A stretch of 64,000 bases of DNA from Streptomyces albogriseolus (GTDB taxonomy: Bacteria; Actinomycetota; Actinomycetes; Streptomycetales; Streptomycetaceae), in assembly GCA_014650475.1 (NCBI GenBank), contig BMVA01000006.1, positions 1 to 64,000 of the forward strand, written 5' to 3'. The number at the start of each line of letters is the position of its first letter. Position 1 is the stretch's first letter. Below, piece after piece: positions 29,825-59,269 of this stretch. Under the pieces are notes generated by a model. The model was given only the letters and a program-made list of their open reading frames with translations, ran no database searches and had not been told where the DNA came from. Both the position numbers and the translations under genes were made by a program.

Positions 29825-32755
29825 GTGTCCATGCACGGCCGGGACCAGATGTTCCCGCAGGACTGTCCGGGAGGCCACCAGGGCATGTCGACGGGGGCGG
29901 GGATCGACGTCCAGCGGCAACTGGAGTCGCTCATCCAGGACTTCCGCGCGGGCGACCCCCCGATGCCGGTGATCGTGCTGCACGCGGAGGACGCGGCCGA
30001 CGACGACCGCGTGACGGAACTCGTCGACGAGCTGCGCGAAGGACAGCAGAGCCACGGCACGCGTCTGGCCGTCGCGCCCACCGAGCCGCCGCAGGAGGAC
30101 CCGGACCTGGACCCCACCGCCCAGGCCGTGCGGCTTCTGCGCGACCTGGGCGACAGCCGGAAGTGGGGCGACCGTTCCGCCTCCTACCGCCCCTACTCCT
30201 TCCCCCGGCTGGGACTGGTCCGCGCCCTTCAGGACGCCACCGACGACCCGGACATGGACGCGCACTGGCCGACCGCCCCGGCAGGCACTCCGGACGGCAA
30301 CGCCCAGCGCGAACAGGCCCAGACCCAGCTGCTCCGCATCCTCGCCCGGCAGCGCTGGCGGCCTCGCAGGCCCGCGCGCCGCAATCGTCAGGCGCTGCTG
30401 AACGACGTGCAGCAGTTCCTCCCCGCGGGTGTCCTGGGCGCGCTCACCTCCCTGTTGACCCGCCCCGAGTGGTACGTCGCCGTCCTCGCGGGCATCGGTC
30501 TGATGATCCTGCTGGCCGCGCTGAACCACGTGCCCGGGCGCGCACCACTCTTCTTATGGCTGCGCAGGGAGAGCCGCTGGTTCCTGACCACGACGTTCCT
30601 CCAGTCCGCGGCCCGTCGGCAGTCGACCAGCGTGCGGCTGCTGCGGCCCGTCCGTTCCTGGCGCGCCATCGCCGCCCGCGCCTACGACGTCGCAGAGGCC
30701 ATGCGCGAGGGCGGCGTCTTCCCCCTCCAGCTGTACGTGCTGGCGCTCTTCGAGGACCTGCGGGACAACCACCGGCGCGCGAGCTGGGACCTGCGCGGCC
30801 TGAAGCGGACGCGGCCGCCGGTGCTGATCCTGCGCCAGGTGAGCCGGGAGAACGGCGGCATCGAGCTGATCAAGGCGGTCAGCGACGTCCGCAGCCGCCG
30901 AAGCGAACTGGACCCCCTGCTGATCGTGGCCGGCGTGGCGGCGGCCGACGCACCCCTGCTCGACCGGGGCGCCGACACCGGTGCGCCCCCCGCCGGGACC
31001 GACTCCCGTTCCCCGCTGCTCTCCAGCCCCGCCCGCCTGCAGCAACGGCTGCGGCACTGGTACGACGAATGGGCCGGGAACCTGCGCGCCGACCAGTCCC
31101 CGAGCCGGACGAACGCCCTGCCCTGGGTGCTGCGCATATCCCTCCCCCACGAGGAGCTGGTCCAGCTGCGGCAGGCGGACTGGCGGTGCGTGCGGGCCCG
31201 GCACCGTCCGCCCGTGGCCCGGATCGTGTGGTCGGCGTACAGCCTGGCGCTGGTCCTCGCGCTGGCGGCCACCGTCGGTGTCGTACACGCCCGTGACCTG
31301 CACCGCACGTACTGTTCGGCGGGTCTGCTGACCGCCGACCGCGACACCGAGCTGCGCCCGGCGCCGGGCGGCGGCACGGAGTGCGTCGGCATATCGACGG
31401 GCGACGTGCGGTTCGGTTCCCACCTGAAGGGCGGGTCCGACTCGGAGGGCGGACGGCTGCGCGAGCTGGAGAAGCTGGTGCACGCCGAGAACGCCAAGGT
31501 GCTGCGCGAGAATCCCCGCGCCTACGTCACGGTGGTGTACGCGGGCCCGCTGAGTTCGGCCACGGTGGACCCGTCCCTGGTCAAGGGCGCGGAGGAGCTG
31601 GCCGGCGTCTACCTCGCCCAGCGGGTGGTGAACGAGAACTACCGCGTCAAGCTACGCGTGTTGCTCGCCAACGGCGGTGCGGACATGGGACACCAGCGCT
31701 TCACCGCCGACGCGATCGCGCGGTACGCCGAGCGCGATCCGACGGTCGTCGGTGTCGTCGGCTTCGGCCGCGACCTGCAGAGCAGCCCCGACGTGACGCG
31801 GCGGCTGCAGGCGGCGGGCCTGCCCATCGTCTCCGGCACCAACTCGGCGACGTATCTGCCGAAGGACTTCTCCAACTGGTTCAGCCTCGCGGCCCCGGAC
31901 GAGCACCAGGCGGAGGCGCTCGGTCTGGTCGCCCAGCAGCTCCGCGGCAAGGGCGCGGCCCCGTACGCCCTCGTCCTGGCCCGCGACACCAAGGCGTCGC
32001 AGGACCGCTACACCAGCGAACAGGCGCACTACGGCGGGGTGATGCTGCGTAAGAAGGGCTTCCGGCTGCTGCCCTCGCGGACCTACCGGGTGGCGAACGG
32101 CAAGCCCGAACTCCGGCTGCACGCGGAGAGCATCTGCCGGGGTGAGGACGTCCCGTCGGTCATCTACTTCGCGGGACGCGTCGAGGACATCGGCCCGCTG
32201 ATGACCCAGTTGGGGGTCGAACCGGGCTGCGCGAACCGCGAGATATCGATTCTCACCGGGGACGACCTGAGCAAGGCCAAGTTCTCCGGCACGGGCGGCC
32301 GGGACGGCGTGGCCCCGCGCATCACGCTGTACCACGCGGCGCTGGCGGAACTGCGGGAGGCGGCGTCCGGGACCGCCTTCTACCAGGACGCGGCCCAGCA
32401 CCTCCCCTGGCTCGAGCCGGGCGAGGCGACCTACGACGCCCCCGGCTTCGCCAGCGGCCAGACGGCCCTCGCCCACGACGCCACGCGCGCGCTGTACTGG
32501 GCGGCGAGCCTCGGCGACGTACGCCAGAGCCGTGCGGCGACCTGGGTCAATCTCAGGGGCGTCAAGCTGGAGGGCATGGCCACCGGCACGATCGACTTCA
32601 CCGACGCGCCGCTGTACGGCGAACGCCACGGCCACAGCATCGTCCTCGCCCGCGTCCGTAGGACGCCGGAGGGGCTGTCGAGGGCGGAGGTGCTGTGCAG
32701 CAGGCCGGCGGGCACCACGAAGCCGCTTGATGTGAAGGAGTGCTCGATCAAGTGA
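29825..32755 (+). CDS. two-span membrane protein with extracellular periplasmic-binding (ANF receptor-like) domain
   Basis: A 976-residue protein. Residues 1-205 are cytoplasmic (VIVLHAEDAADDDRVTELVD). The first hydrophobic segment is near 214-233 (WYVAVLAGIGLMILLAAL), a cytoplasmic helical region follows, and a second segment lies near 467-488 (AYSLALVLALAATVGVVHA). Residues 520-976 resemble a type I periplasmic-binding fold of branched-chain amino acid receptors: VTVVYAGPLSS, AGVYLAQRVVN, VVGVVGFGRDLQSSPDVTRR, GLPIVSGTNSATYLPKD, NWFSLAAPDEHQAEAL, VPSVIYFAGRVEDIGPLM. Such a domain normally belongs to a transporter or receptor; here it may sense an outside ligand and signal inwards. The GTG at 29825 directly follows GGGGG. 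No transporter genes are adjacent. Confidence 0.8.
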   Translation: MSMHGRDQMFPQDCPGGHQGMSTGAGIDVQRQLESLIQDFRAGDPPMPVIVLHAEDAADDDRVTELVDELREGQQSHGTRLAVAPTEPPQEDPDLDPTAQAVRLLRDLGDSRKWGDRSASYRPYSFPRLGLVRALQDATDDPDMDAHWPTAPAGTPDGNAQREQAQTQLLRILARQRWRPRRPARRNRQALLNDVQQFLPAGVLGALTSLLTRPEWYVAVLAGIGLMILLAALNHVPGRAPLFLWLRRESRWFLTTTFLQSAARRQSTSVRLLRPVRSWRAIAARAYDVAEAMREGGVFPLQLYVLALFEDLRDNHRRASWDLRGLKRTRPPVLILRQVSRENGGIELIKAVSDVRSRRSELDPLLIVAGVAAADAPLLDRGADTGAPPAGTDSRSPLLSSPARLQQRLRHWYDEWAGNLRADQSPSRTNALPWVLRISLPHEELVQLRQADWRCVRARHRPPVARIVWSAYSLALVLALAATVGVVHARDLHRTYCSAGLLTADRDTELRPAPGGGTECVGISTGDVRFGSHLKGGSDSEGGRLRELEKLVHAENAKVLRENPRAYVTVVYAGPLSSATVDPSLVKGAEELAGVYLAQRVVNENYRVKLRVLLANGGADMGHQRFTADAIARYAERDPTVVGVVGFGRDLQSSPDVTRRLQAAGLPIVSGTNSATYLPKDFSNWFSLAAPDEHQAEALGLVAQQLRGKGAAPYALVLARDTKASQDRYTSEQAHYGGVMLRKKGFRLLPSRTYRVANGKPELRLHAESICRGEDVPSVIYFAGRVEDIGPLMTQLGVEPGCANREISILTGDDLSKAKFSGTGGRDGVAPRITLYHAALAELREAASGTAFYQDAAQHLPWLEPGEATYDAPGFASGQTALAHDATRALYWAASLGDVRQSRAATWVNLRGVKLEGMATGTIDFTDAPLYGERHGHSIVLARVRRTPEGLSRAEVLCSRPAGTTKPLDVKECSIK

Positions 32756-33664: not shown

Positions 33665-33991
33665 ATGGCAGACGAAACAAGCAGTGCGAAGCCCACGGAT
33701 GTCCCCGACGCACTGGTCATCGACCTGACCGAGGTGTGCAACGCCGAGGACCTCCATCGACTGCTGCAATGTGAGTTGCGGTTCCCCGACTTCCACGGCC
33801 GGAACTGGAACGCGCTGTGGGACGCGATCACCGGCCTCGTCGACCTGCCGCACGAGCTGACCTTCACCAGATGGGCGGCCTTCTCGGCCGCCCTCCCCAC
33901 GGAGGCACACACGCTGCGCAGACTTCTCGGCGACTACCTGCGTGATGTCGGCCGGTACCTCGCCGTGCCCCGCCGTATCCGCTGCCTGTAG
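33665..33991 (+). CDS. barstar-family protein
   Basis: A 108-residue barstar-like protein, the inhibitor fold of ribonuclease barnase. LVIDLTEVCNAEDLHRLLQC gives the first strand and helix; ELRFPDFHGRNWNALWDAIT is the barstar signature, with Tyr/Phe and Asn/Trp residues of the interface helix; LPHELTFTRW follows. No barnase-type gene lies beside it, so it may neutralise an RNase encoded elsewhere or delivered by a neighbouring cell, or be a free immunity protein. It starts 15 bases after the winged-helix gene and ends before a terminator. Confidence 0.85.
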   Translation: MADETSSAKPTDVPDALVIDLTEVCNAEDLHRLLQCELRFPDFHGRNWNALWDAITGLVDLPHELTFTRWAAFSAALPTEAHTLRRLLGDYLRDVGRYLAVPRRIRCL

Positions 33992-34084: not shown

Positions 34085-36193
34085 TCAGCGACGACGTCCC
34101 GCCGCCCCGGTGACATTGGGCCTGCGCGGGTTGAAGACCCACACACCCTGGGACTGTGTGGCACCCAACACCCTGCCGACGTCCAGAAGCCAAGGGTTGG
34201 CCTTCTGGAACGGGGCGAAATTGTCGTTAGAGACAATTACTCCGCCCACCTCTTCGGCGATGCTGATGACCAGGGCGTCCCCCCTGCCCTCGGTGCCCGC
34301 CGGGGGCTGCACCACGGTGCCGGCGGCGATCGCCTCCTCCACCAGCGGACGCTCGTCGGCGGCGACGTCATGCCGGAGCGTCGCATCAACGACGACATGA
34401 ATGTCCCGGTCCGGGTTCTTGAACCGCAGGGACTTGATCGCGGCCTGGAGCGCCTGGAAGCTCGGCTGCCCGCCCGCTGAGCGCGGCGGGCGACCGTTCC
34501 ACGCAAGGTTCGAGCCATCCACCACCAGAGCCGCAGCAGGCTGCTGGGCGGCCTTGACCGACTGTGCCATCGACGCTGGCGTGGGCCGGGCCGCCGTCAC
34601 CGCGCCGCCTTGCCGGCCCTGAGCCGGGACCGCGGGGGTCGCCGAGACAACAGGAACCGGTTGGGGATGCGTCGGACGGGGCGCTTCACGGCCGGTCGTG
34701 CGCAGCGAGAACAGGTCCTGGAGTTCTTTCTCGATCTCCGGCGGAACGGTAGCGTCACCGAAGACCCGCACCTCCCCGTCGAGGACGACCTGCCCCGTCT
34801 TCTGCAGCGTGGCCCGCACCGTCAGCAGGCCTTCCTTGCTGTAGGTGTACTCCAGGTCGAACGCGCCGTCCTCGGCTGCTCGGGAACGCTCCGGGTAGGC
34901 GAGAGGAAGTTCGGTGAGCTTCACGTTGTCGGGGTGGTCGACGGGCCGGTCGGGGTCACCCTCCCACACTTCGACCGTCAGTTTGGACACACCGTCCCTG
35001 GACGGCTGGTATGACTTCTTCCGCTGCTGCGGAAGCCGCTGGTTGCGGTCGATCAGCGCGCTGAACTCACGCTTGCCGTACTGGTCCTTGGTGACCGTGC
35101 CAAGCGCGTGGGTGTTCACCACGCGGATGATGCTCTTCAGCTCTCCGTCCATGGCGGCCGCGCAGACCGCAGCGCCCTCGGCGACCGCGGTCAGCGGGTG
35201 ACAGAGTTCCGGGCCGACGAGCTCGCAGTCCAGGGCCTCGGCCACGGCGTCACGGACGGCGGGGATCTGGCTGCTGCCACCGATCATCAGCACGGCCTTG
35301 AGCTCGCTGGGGTCGATGCGGGCCTGTTCGAGGCATTCCTCGACGGGGTCGAGTGCGCGGGTGATCAGGTCCTGGATCTCGGCGGAGAACTCGTCCTGAC
35401 CGATCTCCACCGCGTTGCCGTCCGGCGTGGTGATACGCACGAATTCCTGGGAGGACAGCAGGATCTTGTTGCGCTCGATGTCGAGTGCGAACTGTCGCTG
35501 TTCGGACTCGGACCACTTCCTGCGCGCGGGCGCCCGGTTGAGCACCATGCGACGAAGCCGCCCGTCGATCTCCAGACCGCCGAGCTTGTTGACGCCGCGG
35601 CTGGCCTTCTCGTCGAAGAAGCCGTCGTCGTGCAGGAGCAGGGTGGCGTCCATGGTTCCGCCACCCCAGTCGAAGACGAGGAACTCGCCATCCTCCTCCA
35701 TATCGTGCGCGTAGGCGATGGCGGCGGCGGTGGGTTCGTTCAGCAGTGTCCTGACGGCGATGCCCGCCGCCCGTGCCGCTTCGCGCGTGCGGAAACGAGC
35801 CGCCCCCGTGGCGTTTGCCGGAACGGTGATCACTGCCTCACCGATCTCGGTCGCGGCTTCTTCCTGGGCTGCGGCAGCCATGGAGCGGAACACGCCGGCG
35901 GCCGCGGTGGTGGCGGCGAAGCGCCGCCCGCCGACCGTCACGAGCGGTTCTTCGCGCAGCAGCCGCTTGCATGCCTCGACGGCCTTCTCCGACCGCAGCT
36001 TGGCCTCCCAGCCGAACAGGGCTCCGGCTCGGAGGGAACTGGTGCCCACCACTGAGGGGTAGAGCTTTTCGAAGCCGGGCCGCCCCCAGTCCGCGTCGAG
36101 TCCCTGACCGCCGAGTTCGAGAATTTCGACGTACTCGCCGTTCCACTGGGCGGCAACCGAGTTGGTGGTGCCGAAGTCGATGCCCGTCGTCAT
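34085..36193 (-). CDS. Hsp70-family ATPase fused to a NYN/PIN-type ribonuclease domain
   Basis: A 702-residue fusion. Residues 1-370 are an Hsp70 nucleotide-binding domain: IDFGTTNSVAAQW (phosphate 1), FLVFDWGGGTMDATLL (phosphate 2), TVPANATGAARFRTREAARA, LNEPTAAAIAYAH and VLMIGGSSQIPAVRD (adenosine). About 370-490 resembles the beta substrate-binding part; 490-545 is a Pro/Ala linker. Residues 550-695 look like a NYN (Zc3h12a-type) RNase: ALVVDGSNLAW, IHVVVDATLRHD, GRGDALVISIAEE and IVSNDNF supply four acidic residues as in PIN/NYN metal sites. Inferred role: a chaperone-controlled RNase. It overlaps the GrpE-like gene by four bases and has GGAGGAAG before the ATG. Confidence 0.85.
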   Translation of the reverse strand: MTTGIDFGTTNSVAAQWNGEYVEILELGGQGLDADWGRPGFEKLYPSVVGTSSLRAGALFGWEAKLRSEKAVEACKRLLREEPLVTVGGRRFAATTAAAGVFRSMAAAAQEEAATEIGEAVITVPANATGAARFRTREAARAAGIAVRTLLNEPTAAAIAYAHDMEEDGEFLVFDWGGGTMDATLLLHDDGFFDEKASRGVNKLGGLEIDGRLRRMVLNRAPARRKWSESEQRQFALDIERNKILLSSQEFVRITTPDGNAVEIGQDEFSAEIQDLITRALDPVEECLEQARIDPSELKAVLMIGGSSQIPAVRDAVAEALDCELVGPELCHPLTAVAEGAAVCAAAMDGELKSIIRVVNTHALGTVTKDQYGKREFSALIDRNQRLPQQRKKSYQPSRDGVSKLTVEVWEGDPDRPVDHPDNVKLTELPLAYPERSRAAEDGAFDLEYTYSKEGLLTVRATLQKTGQVVLDGEVRVFGDATVPPEIEKELQDLFSLRTTGREAPRPTHPQPVPVVSATPAVPAQGRQGGAVTAARPTPASMAQSVKAAQQPAAALVVDGSNLAWNGRPPRSAGGQPSFQALQAAIKSLRFKNPDRDIHVVVDATLRHDVAADERPLVEEAIAAGTVVQPPAGTEGRGDALVISIAEEVGGVIVSNDNFAPFQKANPWLLDVGRVLGATQSQGVWVFNPRRPNVTGAAGRRR

Positions 36194-36837
36194 TCTTCCT
36201 CCCCCAGTGCCGGGCCGGATACCCGCCGCAGATGTCCGGCCAGGATGACTTTCCCGGTCACTTCGTCCACGTACGCCGGGCGCAGCACCTCAAATGTGTC
36301 GCCCTGACCTTCGGTGACCACGAACCGGTCGCTCTCCTCGGGCTCGGTCACCCTGAGGATGCGCAGTTCCCGCAGGTGCGCCCCCATGGCCCCGCCCAGC
36401 AGATCGCCACCGTGCTCCGCCTGCGCCCACACGAGAGCGTCGATCTCCGCGAGACGTCCCGCGAACTGGGCACGAGTGCGGAACTCGTCGAGCACCGCCT
36501 TGCGCACCGCCACGTTCAGAGCCGTGGACGGCGGGACGTCGCCGATGTCGGCGTCCGCTAGTGCAGCGGGTACCCGGTCGACGATTCCCCGGATGATCGT
36601 CTTGGCATCGATGGGGTCAGGCGCATCCGGTACGGTCCGTTCTCGCGCGGCGGCTAGCTCTTCGACCTGCCGCTGCCGCTTCTCCTGGCGGCGCTTCAGT
36701 CCCCCAGGCCTGTGCGGCGCGTCGGCATGCGATGCGCCAGGCTGTATCTGGCCGCAATGCGGACAAATGCGGTGAGCACGCTGATTTTTCGGGATCCTCT
36801 CCCGGTCACGGCGTGCCGTGGTCTTCTTAGCGGCCAT
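36190..36837 (-). CDS. GrpE-like protein with N-terminal zinc ribbon
   Basis: A 215-residue protein. The N-terminus is basic with RICPHCG (CxxC) near residue 24, then a charged helix (KRRQEKRQRQVEELAAARER). The last third (GQGDTFEVLRPAYVDEVTGK, then VILAGHLRRV) resembles the C-terminal beta domain of GrpE, the Hsp70 nucleotide-exchange factor, in the order of strands and the closing RPAYVD. The similarity is weak and this call is inference. The gene overlaps the Hsp70-RNase gene by four bases (ATGA), which fits a partner, and lies 49 bases after the large helical protein gene. Confidence 0.55.
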   Translation of the reverse strand: MAAKKTTARRDRERIPKNQRAHRICPHCGQIQPGASHADAPHRPGGLKRRQEKRQRQVEELAAARERTVPDAPDPIDAKTIIRGIVDRVPAALADADIGDVPPSTALNVAVRKAVLDEFRTRAQFAGRLAEIDALVWAQAEHGGDLLGGAMGAHLRELRILRVTEPEESDRFVVTEGQGDTFEVLRPAYVDEVTGKVILAGHLRRVSGPALGEEE

Positions 36838-36886
36838 GGACTTGTTGCGCCTCGCTCACCGTCGTGCGTTCTGTGGGAAGGACCGT

Positions 36887-38587
36887 TCAGCGGGTGGATC
36901 CGTGCCGGTCGAGATGCGGTGGGGTGCTGCGGAAGTCGTCGAGCAGTTCGACGGCCGCCAGAGCACGGATGTATTCAAGGTCCGCGCCGCTCGTAGCGGC
37001 GGTCCGACGTGCCATCGGCTCCAGCGGCGGCACCAGTCGCCTGGGCACGGTGTCGGGCAAGTCGTACCGGTTCCGGTCGAGAGGCGCCCGGAAGAAGACA
37101 TCGAATTCGGCCTCGTGACGTGCGGCCTCGTCGATGCGGTCCTCGGCCTGGTTGAGCCGGGCCTGAGCTGCCTGGTCCCCCGCTTGCTCGTACTCACGGA
37201 AAAGGACGCGGCAGTGCCGGTCCCAGCCCTCCTGCCCGTGGTCCAAGCCGATTTCAAGGAACGGGTTCGTCATCATTCCCCGCTTGTTCTTCGGCGTTTC
37301 CCTCCAGGTACGCACGTGCGCGAGGTTGCGCTCGGCGACCGGATGGCCGTTCCCTGCGGCTTTCTCGGCGTAGGTTTCGGCGAGGGCCAACTGTTCCCGG
37401 GCGGCCCGGTCGTTGTCGGCCTCGGGCGAGGTGACAGCAGCGACGTACGCAGCGATGGTGTATGCCTCGTCCATCAGGTCGGCGGACAGGGACGGATCCT
37501 TCTTGCGTTCCCGCACAAAGGGCTCCACCTGACGCCGCGCCCCCTCGATGTCACCGGACTTGAGCAGATCGTAGGCGCGGTTGAGTGCGACCAGGGCGTA
37601 GAAGTCGCCGCGTCGGGGGTCAACGGGAGTCGTCGGCCGCCACAGCGCAGCCATCAGCTTCCACAGTCCGCGGTCGCGAAGGGTGTCGCGGTCCCATTGG
37701 CCGACGAGCGCCCCGGACCTGAGGTCGCGCAACACGATCTGCTGCGCGCGCGGCAGCGCTGCGTCCAAGGCGTCGAGAGACGGCAGGTGAACGTCCCTGA
37801 CCACGTCGTAGAGCAGGTCCCAGACGTCTTCCGGTTCCTGCCGCACGACCGTCTCGTCGTTCAGGAAGGCCCGACGGCGCAGCATGGCGTCCCAGCCGAT
37901 CCGCTCGGCTTCCTCCGGACTGACCGAGCCGGGTACGAGTCGGGCCCGCAGGTACAAGGAGTCCTCGTCGTCCCGGGCCTTCCACGGCTCGTCCTCCGCC
38001 AGCAGACCACCGTGGTCCACGAGGTCGTCGAGGACAGACAGCGGCGCCCACGGGAGGACCTGGGCCAAGACGGCGTTGGGGACGGGGACCGCGCCCCGGG
38101 TGGCGGCTGTGGCGAACAGGGAGAAGGCGGGGCCGCCCGAGACCGCGCGGGACCTCGTGCTGACCAGCTCCAGCCCGGGAGCGGTCGAGCACAAGATCCG
38201 ACAACGCTCCAGTCCTGGCCCGTTCAGCCATCGCACCCCGGCGGCCCAGAGCGCGCGTATGTGGCGGAGAACGGACTCCGGGCCCAGACCGGTAAGGCCT
38301 GCCTGGATCGTGGACAACAGCGCATCCCGGTCCGGTGCGCCCTCCAGCGCCTGGGTCAGGACGGTGCTCTGGTCCTCCGTCAACGAGGAGACATTCTCGA
38401 TGTCCTTCAGAACATCGAGGACGGTGTCGACAGCTTCACTCCCATCGACTCCGACCCAGCGCCACTTTCGCTGCACGAATCCACTGGCACCTGCCGAACT
38501 GCCGCTCCGCCGGCGCTCACGTGCTCGAGCCAGGCGCTCCTTTTCCGCGGCTATTGCCGCGCGGCGGGCGGCAACCGGGTCGGTCAT
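36887..38587 (-). CDS. large helical protein, possible co-chaperone with degenerate J domain
   Basis: A 566-residue soluble, mostly helical protein. A basic coiled start (AAIAAEKERLARARERRRSG) is followed by repeats of TPR-like helices around residues 320-430 (RRGDFYALVALNRAYDLLKS, LALAETYAEKAAGNGHP). Near residue 440, NPFLEIGL, GWDRHCRVLFREYE and QARLNQAEDRIDEAA have the layout of J-domain helices I, II and III, but the HPD loop is absent. First gene of the Hsp70-RNase operon. The ATG at 38587 has no binding site; a GTG three codons upstream, six bases after a TACTCT box, may be the real leaderless start. Name uncertain. Confidence 0.7.
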   Translation of the reverse strand: MTDPVAARRAAIAAEKERLARARERRRSGSSAGASGFVQRKWRWVGVDGSEAVDTVLDVLKDIENVSSLTEDQSTVLTQALEGAPDRDALLSTIQAGLTGLGPESVLRHIRALWAAGVRWLNGPGLERCRILCSTAPGLELVSTRSRAVSGGPAFSLFATAATRGAVPVPNAVLAQVLPWAPLSVLDDLVDHGGLLAEDEPWKARDDEDSLYLRARLVPGSVSPEEAERIGWDAMLRRRAFLNDETVVRQEPEDVWDLLYDVVRDVHLPSLDALDAALPRAQQIVLRDLRSGALVGQWDRDTLRDRGLWKLMAALWRPTTPVDPRRGDFYALVALNRAYDLLKSGDIEGARRQVEPFVRERKKDPSLSADLMDEAYTIAAYVAAVTSPEADNDRAAREQLALAETYAEKAAGNGHPVAERNLAHVRTWRETPKNKRGMMTNPFLEIGLDHGQEGWDRHCRVLFREYEQAGDQAAQARLNQAEDRIDEAARHEAEFDVFFRAPLDRNRYDLPDTVPRRLVPPLEPMARRTAATSGADLEYIRALAAVELLDDFRSTPPHLDRHGSTR

Positions 38588-38602
38588 GTCGTACACGCCG
38601 AC

Positions 38603-38608
38603 AGAGTA
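38603..38608 (-). promoter_or_regulatory. -10 hexamer TACTCT of the Hsp70-RNase operon
   Basis: On the minus strand TACTCT ends six bases before the GTG at 38596, which is in frame with the operon's first gene. No Shine-Dalgarno sequence is present, so the transcript may be leaderless. Confidence 0.45.
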
Positions 38609-39361: not shown

Positions 39362-40588
39362 TCAGAGGCCGCGGATCCTGCGGCCCGTCTCGGTCGCCGG
39401 GTAGAGGATCGCCTCGGCGACCCGGCCGCCGGAGTCCTTGACTCCGCCGCTGAAGTTGAGGCGTCCGGACGTGCCGGTCTTCGCGGCGACGCCGTCCCAG
39501 TACGTCGCCTCCCGCTCCCAGTGGATGTCGTCGAGGAGGCGGAACAGGTCGTCCGTGCGGAAGGCGGACGCCGTGTCGGTCCACGGCATGGTGTGGTGAA
39601 CGGCGATGCCGATACCGGCGAGGACGGCGGGTGCGGTGATGGCGCTGCGCGAGGTGAACGCCTGGGCGTGACGGGCGATGAGCCGGGCGAGGACCGGGAC
39701 CACCGTGGCCTCGATCTCCTCGGGCCGGTGTGCCGCCGGCAGGTCGTCCTCGTGCACCGACTCCGCGGAGATCTGGAGGCCGTTGCGGCCGTAGAGTGTC
39801 GCGACGACGAGGGCGCGCAGCGCGGAGAGGGTGACAACCTCGCGGTCGCTCGCGGACACCTGCCGCTTGCTGACGTTCACCAGGCGTGCGAAGGGCACGC
39901 GCTGCCCGTCCGCGTCGACCTTCACCGCGTCGGCGACCAGGTGCGCGAGCCGGGTGGCGTAATCGCGCTGGTCCATGGACATGGCCAGGTTCTTGGCGAC
40001 GGCCACGCCCTGGACGTTCCGGTCGTAGAAGATCTGCCGCGCGTCAGCGGGGGCGAGGTCGATGTACAGCTCGAAGGGCAGGCGCACCTCGGCGAGTTCG
40101 GGGTATGTCAGGCCGTACGCCTCGGGATCGTCGTAGAGGTCGTGCCAGGCGGTGGTCTGGGTCTCGCCATCGATGGCGATGACCATGGTGCCCGGCGCGA
40201 CGGTGAGGGTGCGCAGGCCGCTGCCGGGCACGAGTTCGTCGCTGAGGGCGGCGAGCGGTCCGGCGTGCCACAGGGTGACCGGCGGCGTGGACCAGGCCGC
40301 GCCGAACTCGCCCTTGAGGCCGGCGGCGATGTACTCGGCGTACGGGCCGACGTTCTTGCCCTTCTGTGAGGACTTGAGCGTGCGCTGCACGGTGGCCCGC
40401 AGTTCGGCGTGCCGGCGCACCAGGCCGGACGCGGCCTTCAGTCTGCGCGGGTCCTCCTCCGCGCGGGGCGAGGGCACGAGCTGGACGAGCGTCGGCACGG
40501 ACATCGTTCCGACGACGGCGTCGGCGCGGAACGGCATCACCGTGAGCTGGGTGCCTTCGACGACGGCGGTCGGCATGGACAGAAGCAT
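39362..40588 (-). CDS. DndB-like protein with a DGQHR-type domain
   Basis: A 408-residue protein. MVIAIDGETQTTAWHDL near residue 135 corresponds to the DGQHR motif of DndB-family proteins, here in the form DGETQ; QIFYDRNVQGVAVAKNLAMS is the second family motif. In phosphorothioate (Dnd) systems DndB represses the modification genes, but no dndA, C, D or E gene is present here. The ATG at 40588 follows GGGGGGAG. It is divergent from the HTH-methyltransferase gene across a 147-base region with an inverted repeat, so a regulatory or partner role in that system is the best inference. Confidence 0.75.
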   Translation of the reverse strand: MLLSMPTAVVEGTQLTVMPFRADAVVGTMSVPTLVQLVPSPRAEEDPRRLKAASGLVRRHAELRATVQRTLKSSQKGKNVGPYAEYIAAGLKGEFGAAWSTPPVTLWHAGPLAALSDELVPGSGLRTLTVAPGTMVIAIDGETQTTAWHDLYDDPEAYGLTYPELAEVRLPFELYIDLAPADARQIFYDRNVQGVAVAKNLAMSMDQRDYATRLAHLVADAVKVDADGQRVPFARLVNVSKRQVSASDREVVTLSALRALVVATLYGRNGLQISAESVHEDDLPAAHRPEEIEATVVPVLARLIARHAQAFTSRSAITAPAVLAGIGIAVHHTMPWTDTASAFRTDDLFRLLDDIHWEREATYWDGVAAKTGTSGRLNFSGGVKDSGGRVAEAILYPATETGRRIRGL

Positions 40589-40659
40589 GGAACTCCCCCC
40601 GGAGATCTTGCCACTTCCCCTCGGAAGCAACACCAGAGAAGCACAGCACTGAAAGCACC

Positions 40660-40735: not shown

Positions 40736-42955
40736 ATGCCCCAGTCATCCGCGCAGGTGACCGCCGCCGAGATCTCCCGCATCGCGGGGGTCACGCGCGC
40801 CACGGTCAGCAACTGGCGCCGCCGGCACGAGGACTTCCCCACGCCGTCCGGCGGCACGGACAGCAGCCCGCTGTACGACCTGGAGGCCGTGCGCGCCTGG
40901 CTCGCCGCCCGCGGTCACGTCTCCGCGGCGACCCCGGCGGAGGAGCTGCGGACGACGCTGCGCTTGCGCGCACAGAGCGGCGGGAGCGGCGCGTCGGAAG
41001 GGCTGCTGCTCTTGGTCCTCGCGGCGGCCGGCCGCTCGCCGGAGGAGCTGACGGCCGTCATGGAGTCCCCGGACGCGGATCTCGTGGCGCAGGCGCAGCG
41101 TGACGCAACGACCGCGGCCGACGCCGTGCCCGGCGCCGTTCCCGTCCGTTTCGGCGCGGGCGACGCGGCGGTGCTGCGCGCGCTGTACGCGTGTGTACGT
41201 GACGAAGGGGGTCAGGCCGCCCTCGGCGTGCTCGCCGAGCGGGAGCTGGAGGACAGCGCCGCGTCCGGCGCGTACCTGACCCCCGCCCCGCTCGCGGACC
41301 TGATCGCCCGGCTGATCCCGGGGTCCGCGTCCAGCGTCCTCGACCCGGCCTGCGGCGGCGGCACCCTGCTGGCGGCGGCCGCCCGCCGGGGAGCGCGTGC
41401 GCTGTACGGCCAGGACAACCTGCCCGTACAGGCCCTGCGCACCGCCGTGAGCCTGACGCTGACGGCTCCGGAGGCCGAGGTCACCGTGCGCGCCGCCGAC
41501 AGCCTCCGCGCGGACGCGTTCCCCGACCTGCTCGTGGACGCGGTGCTGTGCAATCCGCCGTACGGCGTGCGCGACTGGGGCCACGACGAGCTGGCGTACG
41601 ACCCGCGCTGGGCGTACGGCGTCCCGCCGCGCGCGGAGTCGGAGCTCGCCTGGGTGCAGCACGCGCTCGCCCACCTGGCACCGGGCGGTTACGCCGCCCT
41701 GCTGCTGCCGCCCGCCACGGCCGGCCGCGCGTCGGGGCGCCGGGTGCGGGCGGAGCTCGTACGCAGCGGGGCCCTGCGCGCGGTGATCGCGCTGCCGGTC
41801 GGCGCGTCGGTGCCGCTGCACGTGGGGCTCCAGGTGTGGGTGCTGCAGCGACCCGAACCGGGCGGGCCCGCGCGGAAGTCGGTGTTGTTCGTGGACACGG
41901 CGGCGGACGCGGTGACGGGTACGACGGCGGGCGGGCGCGGTGGGGCGGCGGTGACCGAGCGGACGAGGAGCGGCGGCCGGTCCGCTTCCCTGGACTGGGA
42001 GGCGATCACCGCGCACGCCGTTGGCGCGTGGCAGGTGTACACACGGAACCCGGACGCTTTCGAAGGCGAACCGGGTGTCGCGCACGCGGTGGGTGTGGTG
42101 GACCTGCTGGACGACGTGGTGGACCTGACCCCGGCACGGCTCGTACGGGCGTCCAGGGCGGAGGTCGACCCGGCGGAGCTTTCGGCCGAGGTCGAGGCCG
42201 CGCGCCGTGGCCTCGTCGGAGCCGCGCGGTCCCTGGAGCGGGCGGCGGGCCGGGAGAGGTGGAGCGCCGCGGGCGCCTCGCCCCGCGAGTGGCGGACGGC
42301 GACGGTGTCCGACCTGGCGCGCGGCGGGGCCCTCACGCTGCTGCGGACCGTGCCGGAGGGAGTGCGGAGCCGCGCCGACGGTGACGGGAGCGGCAGGAGG
42401 GGGATGCGGCCTGAGACGGCCCGTGCGGTGCTCACCGGCTCGGACATCATGCGCGGATCGATCCCCACTGGCGACCCGGCGGAGCTGCCCGGCCACACGG
42501 CACCGGTCATCGCCGTGGGGGATGTTCTCGTACGGGCGATCGCGAGCGCCGACGGGCCGATGAGCCGGGTGGCGGGCGAGGAGGAGGCAGGCGCGCTGCT
42601 CGGCCTCCACGTCCACCTCTTCCGGCCGGACCCGAAGCGCCTGGACGCCTGGTTCCTCGCCGGGTTCCTGGGCGCGGAGGAGAACATCGCGGGCGCGTCG
42701 ACGGGCAGCACGGTCCTGACCGTCAGCCCGGGCCGGCTGCGCGTGCCGCTGCTGCCGCTGGAGGAACAGCGGCGCTACGGGGAGGCGTTCCGGCACGTGC
42801 ACGCGCTCCGAACGGAGGCGCGGCGGGCGACCCTGCTGGCGGAGGAAACGGCACGGTTGCTGGCGGGCGGGCTCACGGGCGGGCAGTTGCTGCCGGCCCG
42901 GGAGGCGGCGAAGGGGGACGCGGTACGCGGCCGGGGTGACGATTCACCCCATTAG
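40736..42955 (+). CDS. N6-adenine DNA methyltransferase with N-terminal HTH and C-terminal specificity-like domain
   Basis: A 739-residue protein in three parts. Residues 8-58 form an excisionase/MerR-like HTH (VTAAEISRIAGVTRATVSNW, YDLEAVRAWLAARG). Residues 150-430 form a type I/IIG-like methyltransferase with SAM motif VLDPACGGGTLLAAAA near 200 and catalytic NPPYG near 273. The last 200 residues read like a type I specificity subunit (GDVLVRAIAS, GSTVLTVSPGRLRVPLLPLE, ERR-type helix EEQRRYGEAF). There is no nuclease domain, so it modifies DNA only. An HTH on such an enzyme is unusual. It lies just upstream of the hsdMSR operon, 105 bases away. Confidence 0.87.
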   Translation: MPQSSAQVTAAEISRIAGVTRATVSNWRRRHEDFPTPSGGTDSSPLYDLEAVRAWLAARGHVSAATPAEELRTTLRLRAQSGGSGASEGLLLLVLAAAGRSPEELTAVMESPDADLVAQAQRDATTAADAVPGAVPVRFGAGDAAVLRALYACVRDEGGQAALGVLAERELEDSAASGAYLTPAPLADLIARLIPGSASSVLDPACGGGTLLAAAARRGARALYGQDNLPVQALRTAVSLTLTAPEAEVTVRAADSLRADAFPDLLVDAVLCNPPYGVRDWGHDELAYDPRWAYGVPPRAESELAWVQHALAHLAPGGYAALLLPPATAGRASGRRVRAELVRSGALRAVIALPVGASVPLHVGLQVWVLQRPEPGGPARKSVLFVDTAADAVTGTTAGGRGGAAVTERTRSGGRSASLDWEAITAHAVGAWQVYTRNPDAFEGEPGVAHAVGVVDLLDDVVDLTPARLVRASRAEVDPAELSAEVEAARRGLVGAARSLERAAGRERWSAAGASPREWRTATVSDLARGGALTLLRTVPEGVRSRADGDGSGRRGMRPETARAVLTGSDIMRGSIPTGDPAELPGHTAPVIAVGDVLVRAIASADGPMSRVAGEEEAGALLGLHVHLFRPDPKRLDAWFLAGFLGAEENIAGASTGSTVLTVSPGRLRVPLLPLEEQRRYGEAFRHVHALRTEARRATLLAEETARLLAGGLTGGQLLPAREAAKGDAVRGRGDDSPH

Positions 42956-43060
42956 GCACGCGGCCGCACACAGATAGACCACACTTGTCGGACGGTCCTG
43001 GTCGGCTCATCGGCCCGGGCGGTGGGGTCGGGACGTTCTGGAAGGAATCCGGGGATCCAG

Positions 43061-45052
43061 TTGAACAGCAGTAAGCACACGGAGTTGGCGAACCACGCGT
43101 GGTCCGTCGCCGACCTCCTGCGGGGGGACTACAAGCAGTCCGACTACGGCAAGGTCATCCTGCCGTTCACGGTGCTGCGGCGACTGGAGTGCGTGCTGGC
43201 GCCGACCCGCGAGAAGGTCGCGGAGATCGCGGAGCAGCACAAGGACAGCGGCATCGACCCGGACCGCTTCCTGCGGCGGGCCTCGGGCCACTCCTTCTAC
43301 AACCGGTCGAGCCTGACCCTGAAGAAGATCGCGGACGACCCTCAGAACGCGGCGCAGAACCTCCAGGTGTACGTGGGGGCGTTCTCCGACAACGCGCGGG
43401 GCGTGCTGGACCGCTTCGAGTTCGCGCAGCAGATCAAGCGGCTGGACGCGGCCGGGCTGCTCTACCAGGTCATCGGCAAGTTCACGGACCTGGACCTGCG
43501 TCCCGAGGTCGTGCCCAACCACAACATGGGCTACATCTTCGAGGAACTGATCCGCCGCTTCGCCGAGCAGTCCAACGAGACGGCCGGTGAGCACTTCACA
43601 CCCCGCGAGGTCATCCAGCTGATGGTGCGGCTGCTCGTCGCCCCGGACGGCGACGCGCTCCAGCTCCCGGGCGCGGTGCGCACGGTCCTTGATCCGGCCT
43701 GCGGCACGGGCGGCATGCTCTCCGCGATGGACGACCTCATCAAGGAGCTGAACCCTGACGCCACGGTCGAGGTCTACGGCCAGGAGCTCAACCCCGAGTC
43801 GTGGGCGATCTGCCGGTCCGACCTGATGATCAAGGGCCAGGACCCGGAGAACATCGCCTTCGGCAACTCCTTCTCCGACGACGGCCACGCCCGCAAGTCC
43901 TTCGACTACATGCTGGCCAACCCGCCGTTCGGCGTGGAGTGGAAGAAGGTCAAGGACGAGGTCGAGCACGAGCACAAGACGCTGGGCGAGGCCGGCCGCT
44001 TCGGGGCGGGGTTGCCGCGCATCAACGACGGGTCGCTGCTGTTCCTGCAGCACATGATTTCGAAGATGAAGCCGGTGGACGTGAACGGCGGGGGCGGCTC
44101 GCGGCTCGCGATCGTCTTCAACGGCTCGCCGCTGTTCACGGGCGCGGCGGGCTCGGGCGAGTCGGAGATCCGGCGCTGGATCCTGGAGAACGACTGGCTG
44201 GAGGGCATCGTCGCCCTGCCGGACCAGCTCTTCTACAACACCGGCATCTCGACGTACTTCTGGATCCTGACGAACCGGAAGAGCCCGGACCACAAGGGCA
44301 AGGTCGTGCTGCTCGACGCGCGTGACCAGTGGCAGAAGATGCGGAAGTCGCTGGGTGACAAGCGCAAGCAGCTGGGCTCGGACCACATCGCGACGGTGGT
44401 CAAGCTGTACGGCGAGGCGCTGGCCGTGGTGGACGACCCGGAGCACCCGCAGCACGGCAAGGTGAAGGTCTTCCGCAACGAGGACTTCGGCTATCAGCGG
44501 ATCACGGTGGAGCGGCCGTTGAAGCTGCGGTTCGAGGTGACGGAGGAGGCGCTGGCGGCGCTGGAGGCGTCCAAGGCGATCCAGAAGCTGCCGCAGGCAC
44601 CGGTTCTGGCGGACGCGTTCAAGTCCCTGATGGGCGCGAGCTGGGGCACGAAGCAGGAGGCGTGGCTCGCGCTGAAAGACGCGGTGGTGCAGGCCGGCGG
44701 GACGTGGCCGACGGGGGCGCCGTTCAACAAGGCGCTGCGGGATGTACTCGGGGTGCGGGATCCGGAGGGCGAGGTGCAGCTCGTGAAGGGGCAGCCTGAG
44801 CCGGATGGGGAGTTGCGGGACTACGAGAACGTGCCGTTGGGGGAGGACGTCGAGGAGTATCTGGCGCGGGAGGTTCATCCTCATGTGCCGGATGCGTGGA
44901 TCGACGGCAGTAAGACGAAGGTGGGGTACGAGATTCCGTTCACTCGGCACTTCTATGTGTATGAGCCGCCTCGGCCGTTGGCGGAGATTGATGCGGAGTT
45001 GAAGGCGCTGGAGGCGGAGATTCGAGCGCTGTTGGGCGAGGTGACAGAGTGA
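43061..45052 (+). CDS. hsdM: type I restriction-modification system, modification subunit
   Basis: A 663-residue N6-adenine methyltransferase subunit. The N-terminal helical domain (LANHAWSVADLLRGDYKQSD, LPFTVLRRLECVLAPTR) precedes the SAM motif VLDPACGTGGMLSAM near residue 209 and catalytic NPPFGVEW near 286. TTG at 43061 is chosen as start because GGGGATCCAG lies directly upstream and the family starts at SSKHTELA. The stop overlaps the hsdS start (GTGA). It forms the modification enzyme with HsdS and the restriction complex with HsdR. The C-terminal 150 residues are longer than in EcoKI-type HsdM. Confidence 0.95.
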   Translation: MNSSKHTELANHAWSVADLLRGDYKQSDYGKVILPFTVLRRLECVLAPTREKVAEIAEQHKDSGIDPDRFLRRASGHSFYNRSSLTLKKIADDPQNAAQNLQVYVGAFSDNARGVLDRFEFAQQIKRLDAAGLLYQVIGKFTDLDLRPEVVPNHNMGYIFEELIRRFAEQSNETAGEHFTPREVIQLMVRLLVAPDGDALQLPGAVRTVLDPACGTGGMLSAMDDLIKELNPDATVEVYGQELNPESWAICRSDLMIKGQDPENIAFGNSFSDDGHARKSFDYMLANPPFGVEWKKVKDEVEHEHKTLGEAGRFGAGLPRINDGSLLFLQHMISKMKPVDVNGGGGSRLAIVFNGSPLFTGAAGSGESEIRRWILENDWLEGIVALPDQLFYNTGISTYFWILTNRKSPDHKGKVVLLDARDQWQKMRKSLGDKRKQLGSDHIATVVKLYGEALAVVDDPEHPQHGKVKVFRNEDFGYQRITVERPLKLRFEVTEEALAALEASKAIQKLPQAPVLADAFKSLMGASWGTKQEAWLALKDAVVQAGGTWPTGAPFNKALRDVLGVRDPEGEVQLVKGQPEPDGELRDYENVPLGEDVEEYLAREVHPHVPDAWIDGSKTKVGYEIPFTRHFYVYEPPRPLAEIDAELKALEAEIRALLGEVTE

Positions 45053-46344
45053 CTCTCTGGCCAAACATGAAGGTGGGACGCGCCGCGCGGCTGATCAGCG
45101 GGGTTGGGTTCCCTCACCAGTACCAGGGCAAGTCGTCAGGCGCGCACCCGTTCCTGAAAGTGTCCGACCTCAAATCAGGAGTATCCGGATACCGCCTGGT
45201 TACGGCGCAGAACTGGGTAGGCCAAACCGACCTTGTCTCGCTCAGTGCCCGATTGGCCCCCAAAGGAGCGATCGTGTTCCCAAAGGTGGGAGCCGCCATG
45301 CTAAAGAACCCCCGCCGCCTCCTAAATCTTTCGGCAGCGATGGACAACAACCTGATGGCCGTGGTTCCCAACCTTGGCGAATCTCGGTTCTGGCTGTACG
45401 CCCTGAGCACTGTCGACCTGGGTGAGATTGCCGCCGGTGGCGCGCTTCCTTACGTCAACGAGGGACAGATTCGGGACTTGCGTATCCCGTTCCCGGGGAT
45501 TGAGGAGCAGCGCCGCATCGCCGACTTCCTCGACGCCGAGACAAGCCGCATCGACAAGCTCGTAGGCACGTTGCAGCGCGAGCGGGACCTCCTAGCGGAG
45601 CGGCGCACAGCAGGCGTGGTAGCGGCTGTGTCGGGCAGTACGGACCCGGACCGCCGAAAATCGACGCTGGCCTGGTTGGAGTCAATACCGAAGGCCTGGC
45701 AGGAAGTCCGCGTGGGGTTGCTAGCTCGGATGGGCAGTGGCCACACACCGAGCCGTTCCCACCCAGAATGGTGGACGGGATGCAGCATTCCGTGGATCAC
45801 AACAGGCGAAGTTAAGCAGGTACGAGACGACCGTATCGAGGAGCTTTACGAGACTCGAGAGAGAATCAGCGAACTAGGACTTGCCAACTCCGCCGCCGAA
45901 CTACACCCGAAAGGCACCGTATTTTTGTGCCGTACTGCATCGGCTGGCTACTCGGGTGTCATGGGTCTAGATATGGCGACGAGCCAGGACTTCGTTACGT
46001 GGACCTGCGGACCTCGCTTGCAGCCGCATTTCCTCTTGTGGTGCCTTCGAGCCATGCGACCTGATCTTCTGGGTCGTCTAGCTATGGGGTCCACTCACAA
46101 AACGATCTATGTGCCCGATCTCCAGATGCTGCGCATCCCCCTGCCCCCCTTGGAGGACCAAGAGGAGATCGTGCAGACCATCCGACGCCAGAATGCCCGT
46201 CTGGACACGCTGACGGACAAGGTGCAGCGTCAACAAGCACTGCTTCGCGAGCGGCGTGAAGCAGTGATCACCGCCGCTGTCACTGGCCAGTTCGACGTAT
46301 CCACCGCCAGCGGCCGCAACGTCACCGAAGGAGTCTCCGCATGA
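45049..46344 (+). CDS. hsdS: type I restriction-modification system, specificity subunit
   Basis: A 431-residue DNA-recognition subunit with two target-recognition domains, about residues 1-145 and 210-370. Each is followed by a conserved helical region: IPFPGIEEQRRIADFLDAET with IDKLVGTLQRERDLLAERR, and IPLPPLEDQEEIVQTIRRQN with LDTLTDKVQRQQALLRERR. The GTG overlaps the hsdM stop and the stop overlaps the hsdR start, both by four bases. Base composition is visibly lower in GC, with more A/T at third positions than either neighbour, as expected for recognition domains that move between strains. The recognised sequence cannot be predicted by eye. Confidence 0.94.
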   Translation: MTLWPNMKVGRAARLISGVGFPHQYQGKSSGAHPFLKVSDLKSGVSGYRLVTAQNWVGQTDLVSLSARLAPKGAIVFPKVGAAMLKNPRRLLNLSAAMDNNLMAVVPNLGESRFWLYALSTVDLGEIAAGGALPYVNEGQIRDLRIPFPGIEEQRRIADFLDAETSRIDKLVGTLQRERDLLAERRTAGVVAAVSGSTDPDRRKSTLAWLESIPKAWQEVRVGLLARMGSGHTPSRSHPEWWTGCSIPWITTGEVKQVRDDRIEELYETRERISELGLANSAAELHPKGTVFLCRTASAGYSGVMGLDMATSQDFVTWTCGPRLQPHFLLWCLRAMRPDLLGRLAMGSTHKTIYVPDLQMLRIPLPPLEDQEEIVQTIRRQNARLDTLTDKVQRQQALLRERREAVITAAVTGQFDVSTASGRNVTEGVSA

Positions 46345-49300: not shown

Positions 49301-49523
49301 CCCGAAGGTCCGAGCCGCGGCCCTCGTCAACGACGAGGAGAACTTCGGCATCGTCTTCGACAAGAAGTTCGAGGAGAACATGATGGACCATGTCTCCACG
49401 ATCGACACGCTCGGCAAGCGGTACTTCGGTACCGACCGGGACTTCAAGTCCAACCTCGACCGCAGCGCCCGCCGGGCCGCCTGGCGGATGATCCGCCGGG
49501 AAGAGGGGCTGGACGAAATCTGA
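46341..49523 (+). CDS. hsdR: type I restriction-modification system, restriction/translocation subunit
   Basis: A 1060-residue subunit. The N-terminal nuclease region contains TLFLNGIPVATAELKNPL, the D/ExK-type core of HsdR nucleases near residue 155. The SF2 translocase follows: Walker A MASAGSGKSNTIGWLAHR near 310, DEAH box IIVDEAHSSQSG near 442, and motif VI region QTLSRLNRTVERK near 735. It cleaves unmethylated DNA after ATP-driven translocation. The ATG overlaps the hsdS stop by four bases. The full length and all motifs indicate an active subunit. A hairpin follows the stop. Confidence 0.95.
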   Translation: MSPVHDESSFGSAIVAALRERGWREANPEDYRPDLGLDTAELFTFIGATQPDEWNELLTVYGGNPNEAQRGFAQRLDRAIADDGLLHVLRNGVKDRGVRLRVAYFKPNLITADSVLDGYRANRLTVVRELPYATKQADWGHRLDLTLFLNGIPVATAELKNPLTGQGVEQAKEQYRTDRDPTELIFTRRVIANFVVDPDLVFVTTQLRGKSTQFLPFNTGSNGPGQPGGAGNPAPTAHGTYATSYLWEQVWQRDNWLDLLQRFVHQQKEKTPGGGTTRKTIFPRFHQWDVVRKLTAHASVHGAGQNYLVMASAGSGKSNTIGWLAHRLSDLHARNDPAVLRPDALADGRIKPGEPVFDKVIVITDRRALDAQLSATVGSFSQTDGLVVKVDEKHGAKSEQLARALSRDSGKIVTVTLHSFPALLDYIRRNPTEIKGTRFAIIVDEAHSSQSGDAATAVKSALRDLGLDADSDEEGATTVTVDDQLKAKAVARSRAANLSYFAFTATPKSKTLELFGTEGVENGKTVYRPFHTYSMRQAIEEGFILDPLRNYVTYNTYWKLANLNRDEKEVDPSKANSHLARFALMHEHTVSQHATVIVEHFLAHTRGRLGGRAKAMVVTASRHSAVQMARAIRSYIKDREYDTKYPDLGVLVAISGTLTIDGEETTEVKENGGLSENALPKAFAYTRADDKAAKAGGKGQQEYRILVVAEKYQTGFDQPLLTTMYVNKTLTGIAAVQTLSRLNRTVERKSQADLAVLDFVNDAEDIQDAFRPYFEEAHTLPTDPNLLYTAQSRVMSAPIISEQDMDEFVAAYFEAQEKAGGSQSKWEKLHAELYRLLSPAVTRFTALLESEEEDDVETAEEFRAHLNDYVRKYGFLAQIVPYRDAELERLYLYGRYLLNRLPRLADGGVDIGEVDLSHLRVEKTGEHDVSLNPEGPAELKGFGDGVGGAKDAEKSLLSELIEKFNAKFGTEFTEEDVLPAFNATKKDPKVRAAALVNDEENFGIVFDKKFEENMMDHVSTIDTLGKRYFGTDRDFKSNLDRSARRAAWRMIRREEGLDEI

Positions 49524-59038: not shown

Positions 59039-59095
59039 ACCTGGATGGCCAGGTGTGTGCAGACGCAGGACAGGTCACACATCTCCACAGTTCAA

Positions 59096-59124
59096 TTGAC
59101 AGTGCTTTCAAGGGCATGTTTGAG
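59096..59124 (+). promoter_or_regulatory. weak promoter candidate upstream of the OLD-family gene
   Basis: TTGACA at 59096 is followed after 17 bases by TTTGAG, a poor -10. TTCAAGGGCAT occurs twice (59107, 59146), spaced 39 bases. The 231-base gap after the helicase gene means the nuclease gene may have its own promoter. Confidence 0.25.
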
Positions 59125-59269
59125 TACTCACGCTTCCGGTGGCGCTTCAAGGGCATCACCGGACGCGCCTGTCCCTCATGCCCGGATGAATCCGAAGTGC
59201 TCTGGCGTCATTCCCTGTTCGACGCCTCGCGGCCCCGGGCGTGCCGCACCGCCACTCCTCGGAAAGACC

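Follow-up and report, generated by a model that had tools for sequence, protein, structure and literature searches.

A three-gene cassette on the minus strand of the Streptomyces albogriseolus genome couples a chaperone to a predicted RNase. It lies within the first 64,000 nucleotides of contig BMVA01000006.1 (assembly GCA_014650475.1), a stretch that we call the window, and runs from 38596 down to 34085, encoding in order a helical protein of 569 amino acids (aa), a GrpE-like protein of 215 aa and a 702-aa protein in which an Hsp70 is fused to an NYN domain. We propose, as the most likely explanation, that the cassette serves in defence and that its own Hsp70 machine would gate an effector open to exchange, and we rate the odds of this as about even. 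The sequences show the gene set with its conservation and coupling, purifying selection on the Hsp70 and NYN domains, a defence context, the alternation of intact NYN, degenerate NYN and Druantia IV, and exchange in one neighbourhood; from these we infer J and GrpE function for the partner proteins, RNase activity, gating, the trigger and an antiphage effect.

An initial annotation of the window had described an Hsp70 ATPase fused to an NYN-type RNase, and profile searches bear this out: the protein (34085..36193, minus strand) matches Pfam HSP70 with 184 bits and RNase_Zc3h12a with 28.2 bits against a cut-off of 23. Its nucleotide-binding domain and the beta part of its substrate-binding domain span residues about 1-480 (34754..36193, minus strand) and hold GIDFGTTNS, NEPTAAA and DWGGGTMD, conserved in alignments, which from general knowledge of DnaK we take to be ATPase motifs. 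The alpha-helical lid of the substrate-binding domain is absent. At its position lie a variable linker rich in Pro and Ala (residues about 481-555, ~75 residues; 34529..34753, minus strand) and then the NYN domain (34088..34528, minus strand). The linker shows low conservation with insertions and deletions in the alignment, and its predicted local distance difference test score (pLDDT) is about 30. Ratios of nonsynonymous to synonymous substitution (dN/dS), computed for the Hsp70-NYN protein in 13 pairs, were 0.06-0.09 for the Hsp70 part, 0.19-1.06 for the linker and 0.05-0.20 for the NYN domain; purifying selection is strong on both domains and weak on the linker. A Foldseek search with a low-confidence model of the protein gave DnaK structures as top matches (E 5e-22). 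Taken alone, the Hsp70 part scores 176 bits against a PHROG family of unknown function, as is expected of any general Hsp70, and a partial match to PADLOC PDC-M61B, the one part searched, covers only residues 147-320 of the nucleotide-binding domain (26.4 bits).

As a single sequence the NYN domain matched the PDB weakly (best E 0.075), so that a family profile was needed. The profile of 14 diverse NYN domains (alignment A6) matched ZC3H12B (E 9e-8), ZC3H12C (9e-7), KHNYN (2e-6) and ZC3H12A (4e-6), the whole range for these proteins being E 9e-8 to 1e-5, and the proposed kinship with Zc3h12a/NYN RNases is thus upheld. Four conserved acidic residues had also been claimed, in the motifs VDGSN, VVDATLR, GRGDAL and SNDNF. 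All four motifs are present, and their acids D559 (34517..34519), D603 (34385..34387), D639 (34277..34279) and D657 (34223..34225; all minus strand) are invariant in A6 and in a 17-row alignment (A1), but only three of them align with Regnase-type aspartates: D559 with the Asp of ZC3H12 VIDGSN, D639 with the second Asp of the ZC3H12 DD pair and D657 with the Asp of ZC3H12 SNDNY. Where ZC3H12 has the first Asp of that pair, this family has Gly, and D603 is an extra invariant acid with no Asp opposite it in the ZC3H12 alignments. The quartet is intact in 36 of the 40 NYN-bearing loci described below. The C-terminal domain therefore keeps its acidic centre as judged by sequence, the structure model being too poor to show the fold, and profile and acidic centre together place it in the NYN/Zc3h12a family as a predicted RNase. 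For Regnase itself, the passages of PMC4772114 drawn on here give four catalytic Asp residues and name D225, D226 and D244.

The GrpE-like gene (36190..36837, minus strand) overlaps the Hsp70 gene by a stop/start of 4 bp (36190..36193, minus strand). Both the overlap and a GrpE-like identity had been claimed initially; the overlap stands, whereas the GrpE label is weaker than was implied. The 4-bp overlap is identical in all 22 loci in which it was measured. Outside these 22, one locus (L071) has the two genes without overlap as called, its called Hsp70 beginning 38 bp past the GrpE-like gene and without its N-terminus. The C-terminal part of the 215-aa family aligns with GrpE by hhalign (P 2e-4, probability 47%), and profile searches of the PDB gave chance-level matches only (best E 0.23). 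In the Streptomyces clade the protein carries an N-terminal CPHCG/H-rich stretch.

The first gene of the cassette, ORF585 (36887..38596, minus strand, by gene model and alignment), encodes the large helical protein of the initial annotation; its reading frame is open to 38644, and its conserved start is at 38596, not 38608. The AlphaFold2 (AF2) model is all-helical with TPR-like pairs. With this model Foldseek found nothing at E <=0.001, the highest-probability match among the matches listed being a TPR protein, and the ORF585 profile met chance-level PDB matches only (best E 1.7). Its C-terminal segment contains a J-like region without HPD (NPFLEIGLDHG...WDRHCRVLFRE; 37112..37267, minus strand), for which the family consensus starts NPYLxLGxPHGxxxWxxxWRxLRR. 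By hhalign this segment aligns with DnaJ J-domains over 27 columns (P 2e-5, probability 77%). For the J-like and the GrpE-like segment alike, an earlier profile scored above all 300 column shuffles and the final profile above all 74 real control windows, each of 140 columns and drawn from nine other families; in cross-comparisons neither the J-like segment with GrpE nor the GrpE-like segment with J gave a match. A small gene of its own encodes the J-like part in two distant loci (L074 and L075), where it lies next to the GrpE-like gene and Hsp70, as would fit a triad whose parts were fused later. ORF585, the GrpE-like protein and Hsp70 thus probably resemble a complete Hsp70/Hsp40/GrpE machine. 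The co-chaperone evidence for the two partners comes from profile-profile comparison only: Pfam shows neither, and neither protein has a convincing match in Pfam, NCBIfam or PADLOC.

It is unlikely, in our estimate, that both resemblances arose by chance and that the cassette consists of an Hsp70-RNase with two unrelated partners. Such a reading would account for several results that also weaken our own. Pfam DnaJ was not found for 27 ORF585 members, and for 27 GrpE-like members Pfam GrpE was not in the best 25 of 29 families, the four lowest of which rank under single-member matches of E 0.19. HPD is missing, by eye, in the 27 aligned J-like rows, and the J-like match spans just 27 columns of a segment that was picked out through its NP[FY] anchor; with the full-length ORF585 profile, the score against J-domains does not rise above the null (14.0, P 0.31). 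Both segments nevertheless exceed every shuffle and every real window, the cross-comparisons are negative, and fixed linkage to Hsp70 is what one would expect of co-chaperones.

To follow the cassette beyond the window we used several seeds. Searches with the Hsp70-NYN protein matched 5 of 61 related genomes, its own included, yielding four complete trios (the window, L029, L030 and L032) and one decayed fragment (L031). Searches with the ORF585 profile found the family in 7 of 246 genomes of the class and, with its own genome included, in 43 of 391 of the order, where the trio family is patchy. After eight duplicate loci had been merged into earlier ones, there were 61 distinct Hsp70 proteins, and leaving out two fragments (L031 and L119) gave a table of 59 loci. 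Both partners accompany an Hsp70 of at least 500 aa in 55 of these 59 (the exceptions being the split-form loci L074 and L075, and L076 and L150), a count biased by the way the loci were collected: for most of them a partner gene was the seed, and the set obtained with an Hsp70 seed is small. Scanning genomes with the 215-aa protein as seed yielded 19 loci, each with all three genes and in the same order, ORF585 being interrupted in three of them (L010, L016 and L021). Gene calls in related loci came from a simple codon-usage caller, not a standard gene finder. The three genes thus travel together, and neither outcome named as refuting the initial annotation (a C-terminal domain without the acidic centre, or genes that do not keep together) was observed.

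The 59 loci fall into two principal forms. NYN is present in 40; another 14 have no NYN and lie directly downstream of DruF-DruL-DruE (L072, L073, L123-L126, L129, L130, L132, L133, L137 and L146-L148); the remaining five are the truncated L022, the outgroup L074/L075, L076 and L150. DruF-DruL-DruE was found in 0/40 NYN-locus stretches compared with 14/14 NYN-less sister loci. In 11 of these 14, DruE and ORF585 overlap by 1-4 bp as called. PADLOC identified DruE4 (2171 bits), DruF4 (318) and DruL4 (307) in L072, and labels for the other Druantia loci come from models based on L072 and L073. The sister trio without NYN beside Druantia IV suggests that the chaperone module is constant and the effector changeable, and the trio looks like an apparently overlooked part of this Druantia IV clade. 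Druantia IV itself does not need it: the order contains 25 DruL4 loci in 24 of 391 genomes, 13 with the trio and 12 with other genes behind DruE, and in the phylum DruL4 matched 3 of 296 genomes, with no trio in the stretches fetched from them. Among the trio-free Druantia IV-type operons with other open reading frames (ORFs) behind DruE (L199-L210), these encode, for example, proteins of 486-488 aa (L201, L202) or 464-480 aa (L203, L205), perhaps alternative partners. Separately, the Druantia-linked Hsp70s carry a TVNG(E/R)PQ tail that may be a stub of the lost NYN.

NYN-bearing loci also keep company with defence genes, in support of the association that the initial annotation had proposed to look for. 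Type I restriction-modification (RM) genes or DruE-like/DpdE-like helicases occur in 18/40 NYN-locus stretches versus 0/20 controls (Fisher P 2e-4), and since the defence gene models were drawn partly from these neighbourhoods, the comparison shows only that the setting is not background. The controls were 20-kb stretches 400 kb away in 20 trio-bearing genomes, ten of the NYN form and ten of the Druantia form. The 18 comprise eight with type I HsdM/HsdR, eight with a DpdE-like helicase and a kinase- or DruE-like helicase, and two with a DruE-like helicase alone; kinase-level matches of the KDRUE model (the window, L007 and L009) were excluded. PADLOC further identified HEC-01 and NsnABC genes in L018, and the same clusters are common to L010, L011 and L019. 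One protein of ~2100 aa (L020:12820-19152), beside a DpdE-like helicase, joins a Ser/Thr kinase at its N terminus to a DruE-like helicase; kin of it occur in L006, L016, L021 and L022, families having been scanned in L020 and L022 only.

Direct exchange is seen in one neighbourhood, flanked by GNAT, binding-protein and P39 genes (GNAT37/BP38/P39), which holds three alternative cargos in seven distinct loci: an intact NYN trio (L005, L008, L117), a degenerate one (L030, L128) or DruFLE with the trio (L072, L148). Up to six further genes intervene in some of these loci, and the window is without these flank genes. Exchange within one neighbourhood is the behaviour of an exchangeable cassette. 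The proximity of large defence proteins would also suit an assembly or maintenance factor, in which the trio folds or remodels neighbouring complexes (DruE of ~1800 aa, DruE-like/DpdE-like helicases, type I RM) and supplies them with NYN as an accessory nuclease: a DruE-like/DpdE-like helicase is present in 10/40 NYN stretches, and DruE4 stands directly before the trio in the 14 NYN-less loci. We consider this very unlikely, given that 22/40 NYN stretches are without these helicases or HsdM/HsdR and that Druantia IV occurs without the trio in 12 of the 25 DruL4 loci of the order.

From the patchiness, the neighbours and the cargo swapping we infer an antiphage role. The same machinery could instead serve proteostasis-linked RNA quality control with no phage role, cutting mRNA or tRNA under heat or translation stress and so slowing translation. 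In the outgroup L074/L075, separate GrpE-like, Hsp70 and small J-like genes stand amid metabolic-looking genes (by eye) and include no NYN, Hsp70 systems sense folding stress generally, and purifying selection acts on the Hsp70 and NYN parts. Patchiness (43/391), defence neighbours, swapping and coupling to Druantia IV are, however, atypical of housekeeping, and we regard this alternative as quite unlikely.

In the defence system that we favour, a TPR/J-like adaptor, a GrpE-like exchange factor and a lidless Hsp70 would together form a dedicated machine serving as the trigger, with NYN tethered by the flexible linker at the lid position. With conserved ATPase motifs and a GrpE-like partner, the Hsp70 would be expected to cycle ATP; having no lid, it would grip its clients loosely. 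The J-like TPR adaptor, which has no HPD, would more probably be a receptor for clients or partners than a strong ATPase stimulator. We hypothesize that the RNase stays silent as long as neither misfolded nor phage protein is present. At rest, Hsp70 and adaptor in complex would block NYN, for example by preventing NYN domains from pairing; the domains would lie apart or shielded. Once a phage infects, unfolded or phage protein would flood the cell, be recruited by the helical adaptor and drive the ATP cycle, and the freed NYN would cut RNA, stopping the infected cell or the phage. In the sister lineage the same machine, without NYN, would act beside Druantia IV. The wider idea, that a private Hsp70/Hsp40/GrpE machine is a plug-in alarm that reads folding load and fires whichever effector is coupled to it, NYN or Druantia IV, is possible but doubtful.

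Besides the weaknesses of the co-chaperone matches and the origin of the defence models given above, a number of observations weigh against this defence reading. The AF2 models are weak (mean pLDDT 46.9 for Hsp70-NYN, 55.8 for ORF585), and 3 of the 55 loci (L010, L016, L021) have an interrupted ORF585. In 4 of the 40 NYN loci (L030, L128, L142, L143) the domain has lost two or three of its four acids, and three of these four degenerate NYNs, when compared, are still constrained (dN/dS 0.12-0.16), indicating that NYN can have a non-catalytic role. Neither the 215-aa protein nor NYN had a match on plasmids, NYN had none in phages and the 215-aa family none in viral contigs. The outgroup trio of L074/L075 may be a housekeeping chaperone, possibly ancestral. 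The Hsp70 tree (57 rows, midpoint root, without L150 and L076, the contig-truncated L022 counted as NYN) sets L074/L075 apart and then a large NYN group with weak support (87/67); L029, with NYN, is sister to the four degenerate NYNs and the 14 Druantia-linked proteins (100/98, 100/99). Long branches meet in this tree, as the tool warned, and the rooting is by midpoint. On it, a single loss would account for the swap between NYN and Druantia IV, and many independent events need not be assumed. The simplest history is one gain of NYN followed by one decay and loss, so that the alternation is real but has few events behind it.

If the plug-in alarm idea is true, the cassette would represent a class of bacterial defence in which the unfolded-protein state itself is the phage signal. 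How phages are recognized without a common molecular pattern is an open question for most defence systems, and a chaperone triad with exchangeable effectors would offer a testable answer, namely that Hsp70 occupancy tells the cell how heavily the making of phage protein weighs on it. Such a triad would also explain the extra genes behind a Druantia IV clade, give Druantia a plausible trigger and provide an example of an Hsp70 whose lid has been replaced by an enzyme.

The cassette had been placed between a receptor-like gene and a restriction system. The restriction system is borne out: its hsdM and hsdS, of type I (43022..46344, plus strand), score 914 and 374 bits in PADLOC, and a large ORF after them (46341-49523) is presumed to be hsdR by position only. 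The 'receptor-like' gene (29825-32755), by contrast, has no convincing Pfam or PADLOC family. Between the trio and the type I RM genes lie a DndB-like gene, an Rv1352-like gene and a separate N6 DNA methyltransferase (40736..42955, plus strand; Pfam N6_Mtase 116 bits, PADLOC MTase_I 871 bits). The DndB/DGQHR-like gene (39362..40633, minus strand; Pfam DndB 40.9 bits) recurs close to several other trios, and no other Dnd family was found among the neighbours scanned with Pfam and PADLOC. On the other side, a Barstar-family gene (33665-33991, plus strand; Pfam 58 bits) is convergent with Hsp70-NYN at a distance of 93 bp; it was considered as an antitoxin and dropped, none of the 19 other trio loci searched having one. 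Farther along the window, a UvrD-type helicase is followed by an OLD-like ATPase ORF, the latter recognized by eye (56876-61165, plus strand).

The initial annotation knew of no described system of this composition, and our searches of the openly accessible literature (subscription journals lying outside their scope) yielded nothing that contradicts this: they turned up no account of the combination of Hsp70-NYN, GrpE-like and helical proteins, including in the portions consulted of PMC8195603, PMC3710099, PMC10853773 and PMC11019930, but conceptual neighbours exist (PMC7159879, PMC11090510, in the sections relevant here). A survey of YprA/DruE-type helicases makes no mention of Hsp70, DnaK, GrpE, chaperone or NYN in the text available to us (PMC12458937). 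The likeness of the RNase domain is to Regnase-1/ZC3H12 and KHNYN, with which it shares the NYN domain and three ZC3H12 Asp positions; it differs in the Gly at the first Asp of the DD pair and in the extra invariant D603. Regnase-1/ZC3H12 and KHNYN are eukaryotic and have other partner domains.

Druantia type IV consists of DruE-DruF-DruL, according to the portion of PMC8565338 cited. The trio resembles it in that the sister-clade trio is the downstream part of DruF-DruL-DruE operons and that one neighbourhood holds either form; it differs in that the NYN form is without DruE, DruF and DruL in the 40 fetched stretches and has a fused NYN as its predicted effector. The GAP1-N2 GTPase systems of Kaur 2020, predicted to function in conflict, have HSP70, GrpE and a DnaJ- or TPR-fused protein and are, like the trio, largely actinobacterial; the sections of that paper used here do not include an RNase-for-lid fusion (PMC7159879). 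GAP1-N2 had no match in 15 of 20 trio genomes and in the other five lay on a different contig or 0.5 Mb off, in fetched stretches without Hsp70, GrpE-like or ORF585 relatives. Membership in this theme was accordingly rejected, none of the 20 trio genomes having GAP1-N2 beside the trio.

CoCoNuTs, as presented in the excerpts of PMC11090510 considered here, combine Hsp70-like CnuD/CnuCD units, with nucleotide- and substrate-binding domains, with RNases, are predicted to target RNA, and often lie beside type I RM, BREX or Druantia III; the likeness to the trio is that of Hsp70 domains and an RNase within one predicted defence system. This raises the rather unlikely alternative of CoCoNuT-like RNA restriction, in which Hsp70 and adaptor would target NYN to ribosomes or aberrant RNA and so provide an address, not a gate. 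Loss of the lid fits such a role in binding over folding. In CoCoNuT Hsp70s, however, the same excerpts call the Walker A-like motifs degenerate (PMC11090510), whereas the trio has conserved ATPase motifs and a tightly coupled GrpE-like gene, features that point to a functioning ATP cycle. In scans covering the trio and its near neighbours (eight proteins with Pfam, nine with PADLOC) no McrB-type NxD GTPase, CnuC/McrC or HEPN was found, and membership among CoCoNuTs was rejected.

For the gated defence system that we propose, a precedent is bNACHT25, whose sensing of phage needs DnaJ working with DnaK, as related in the portion of PMC12169576 cited, demonstrating that chaperone state can report infection. 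The two are alike in taking chaperone state as the sign of infection and differ in that bNACHT25 pairs host DnaJ with a NACHT protein, whereas the cassette has a private Hsp70 with a fused RNase (PMC12169576, same portion). On the tests tried, the core of the cassette falls outside Druantia, CoCoNuTs and the GAP1-N2/HSP70 theme, and it is akin to chaperone-centred conflict systems.

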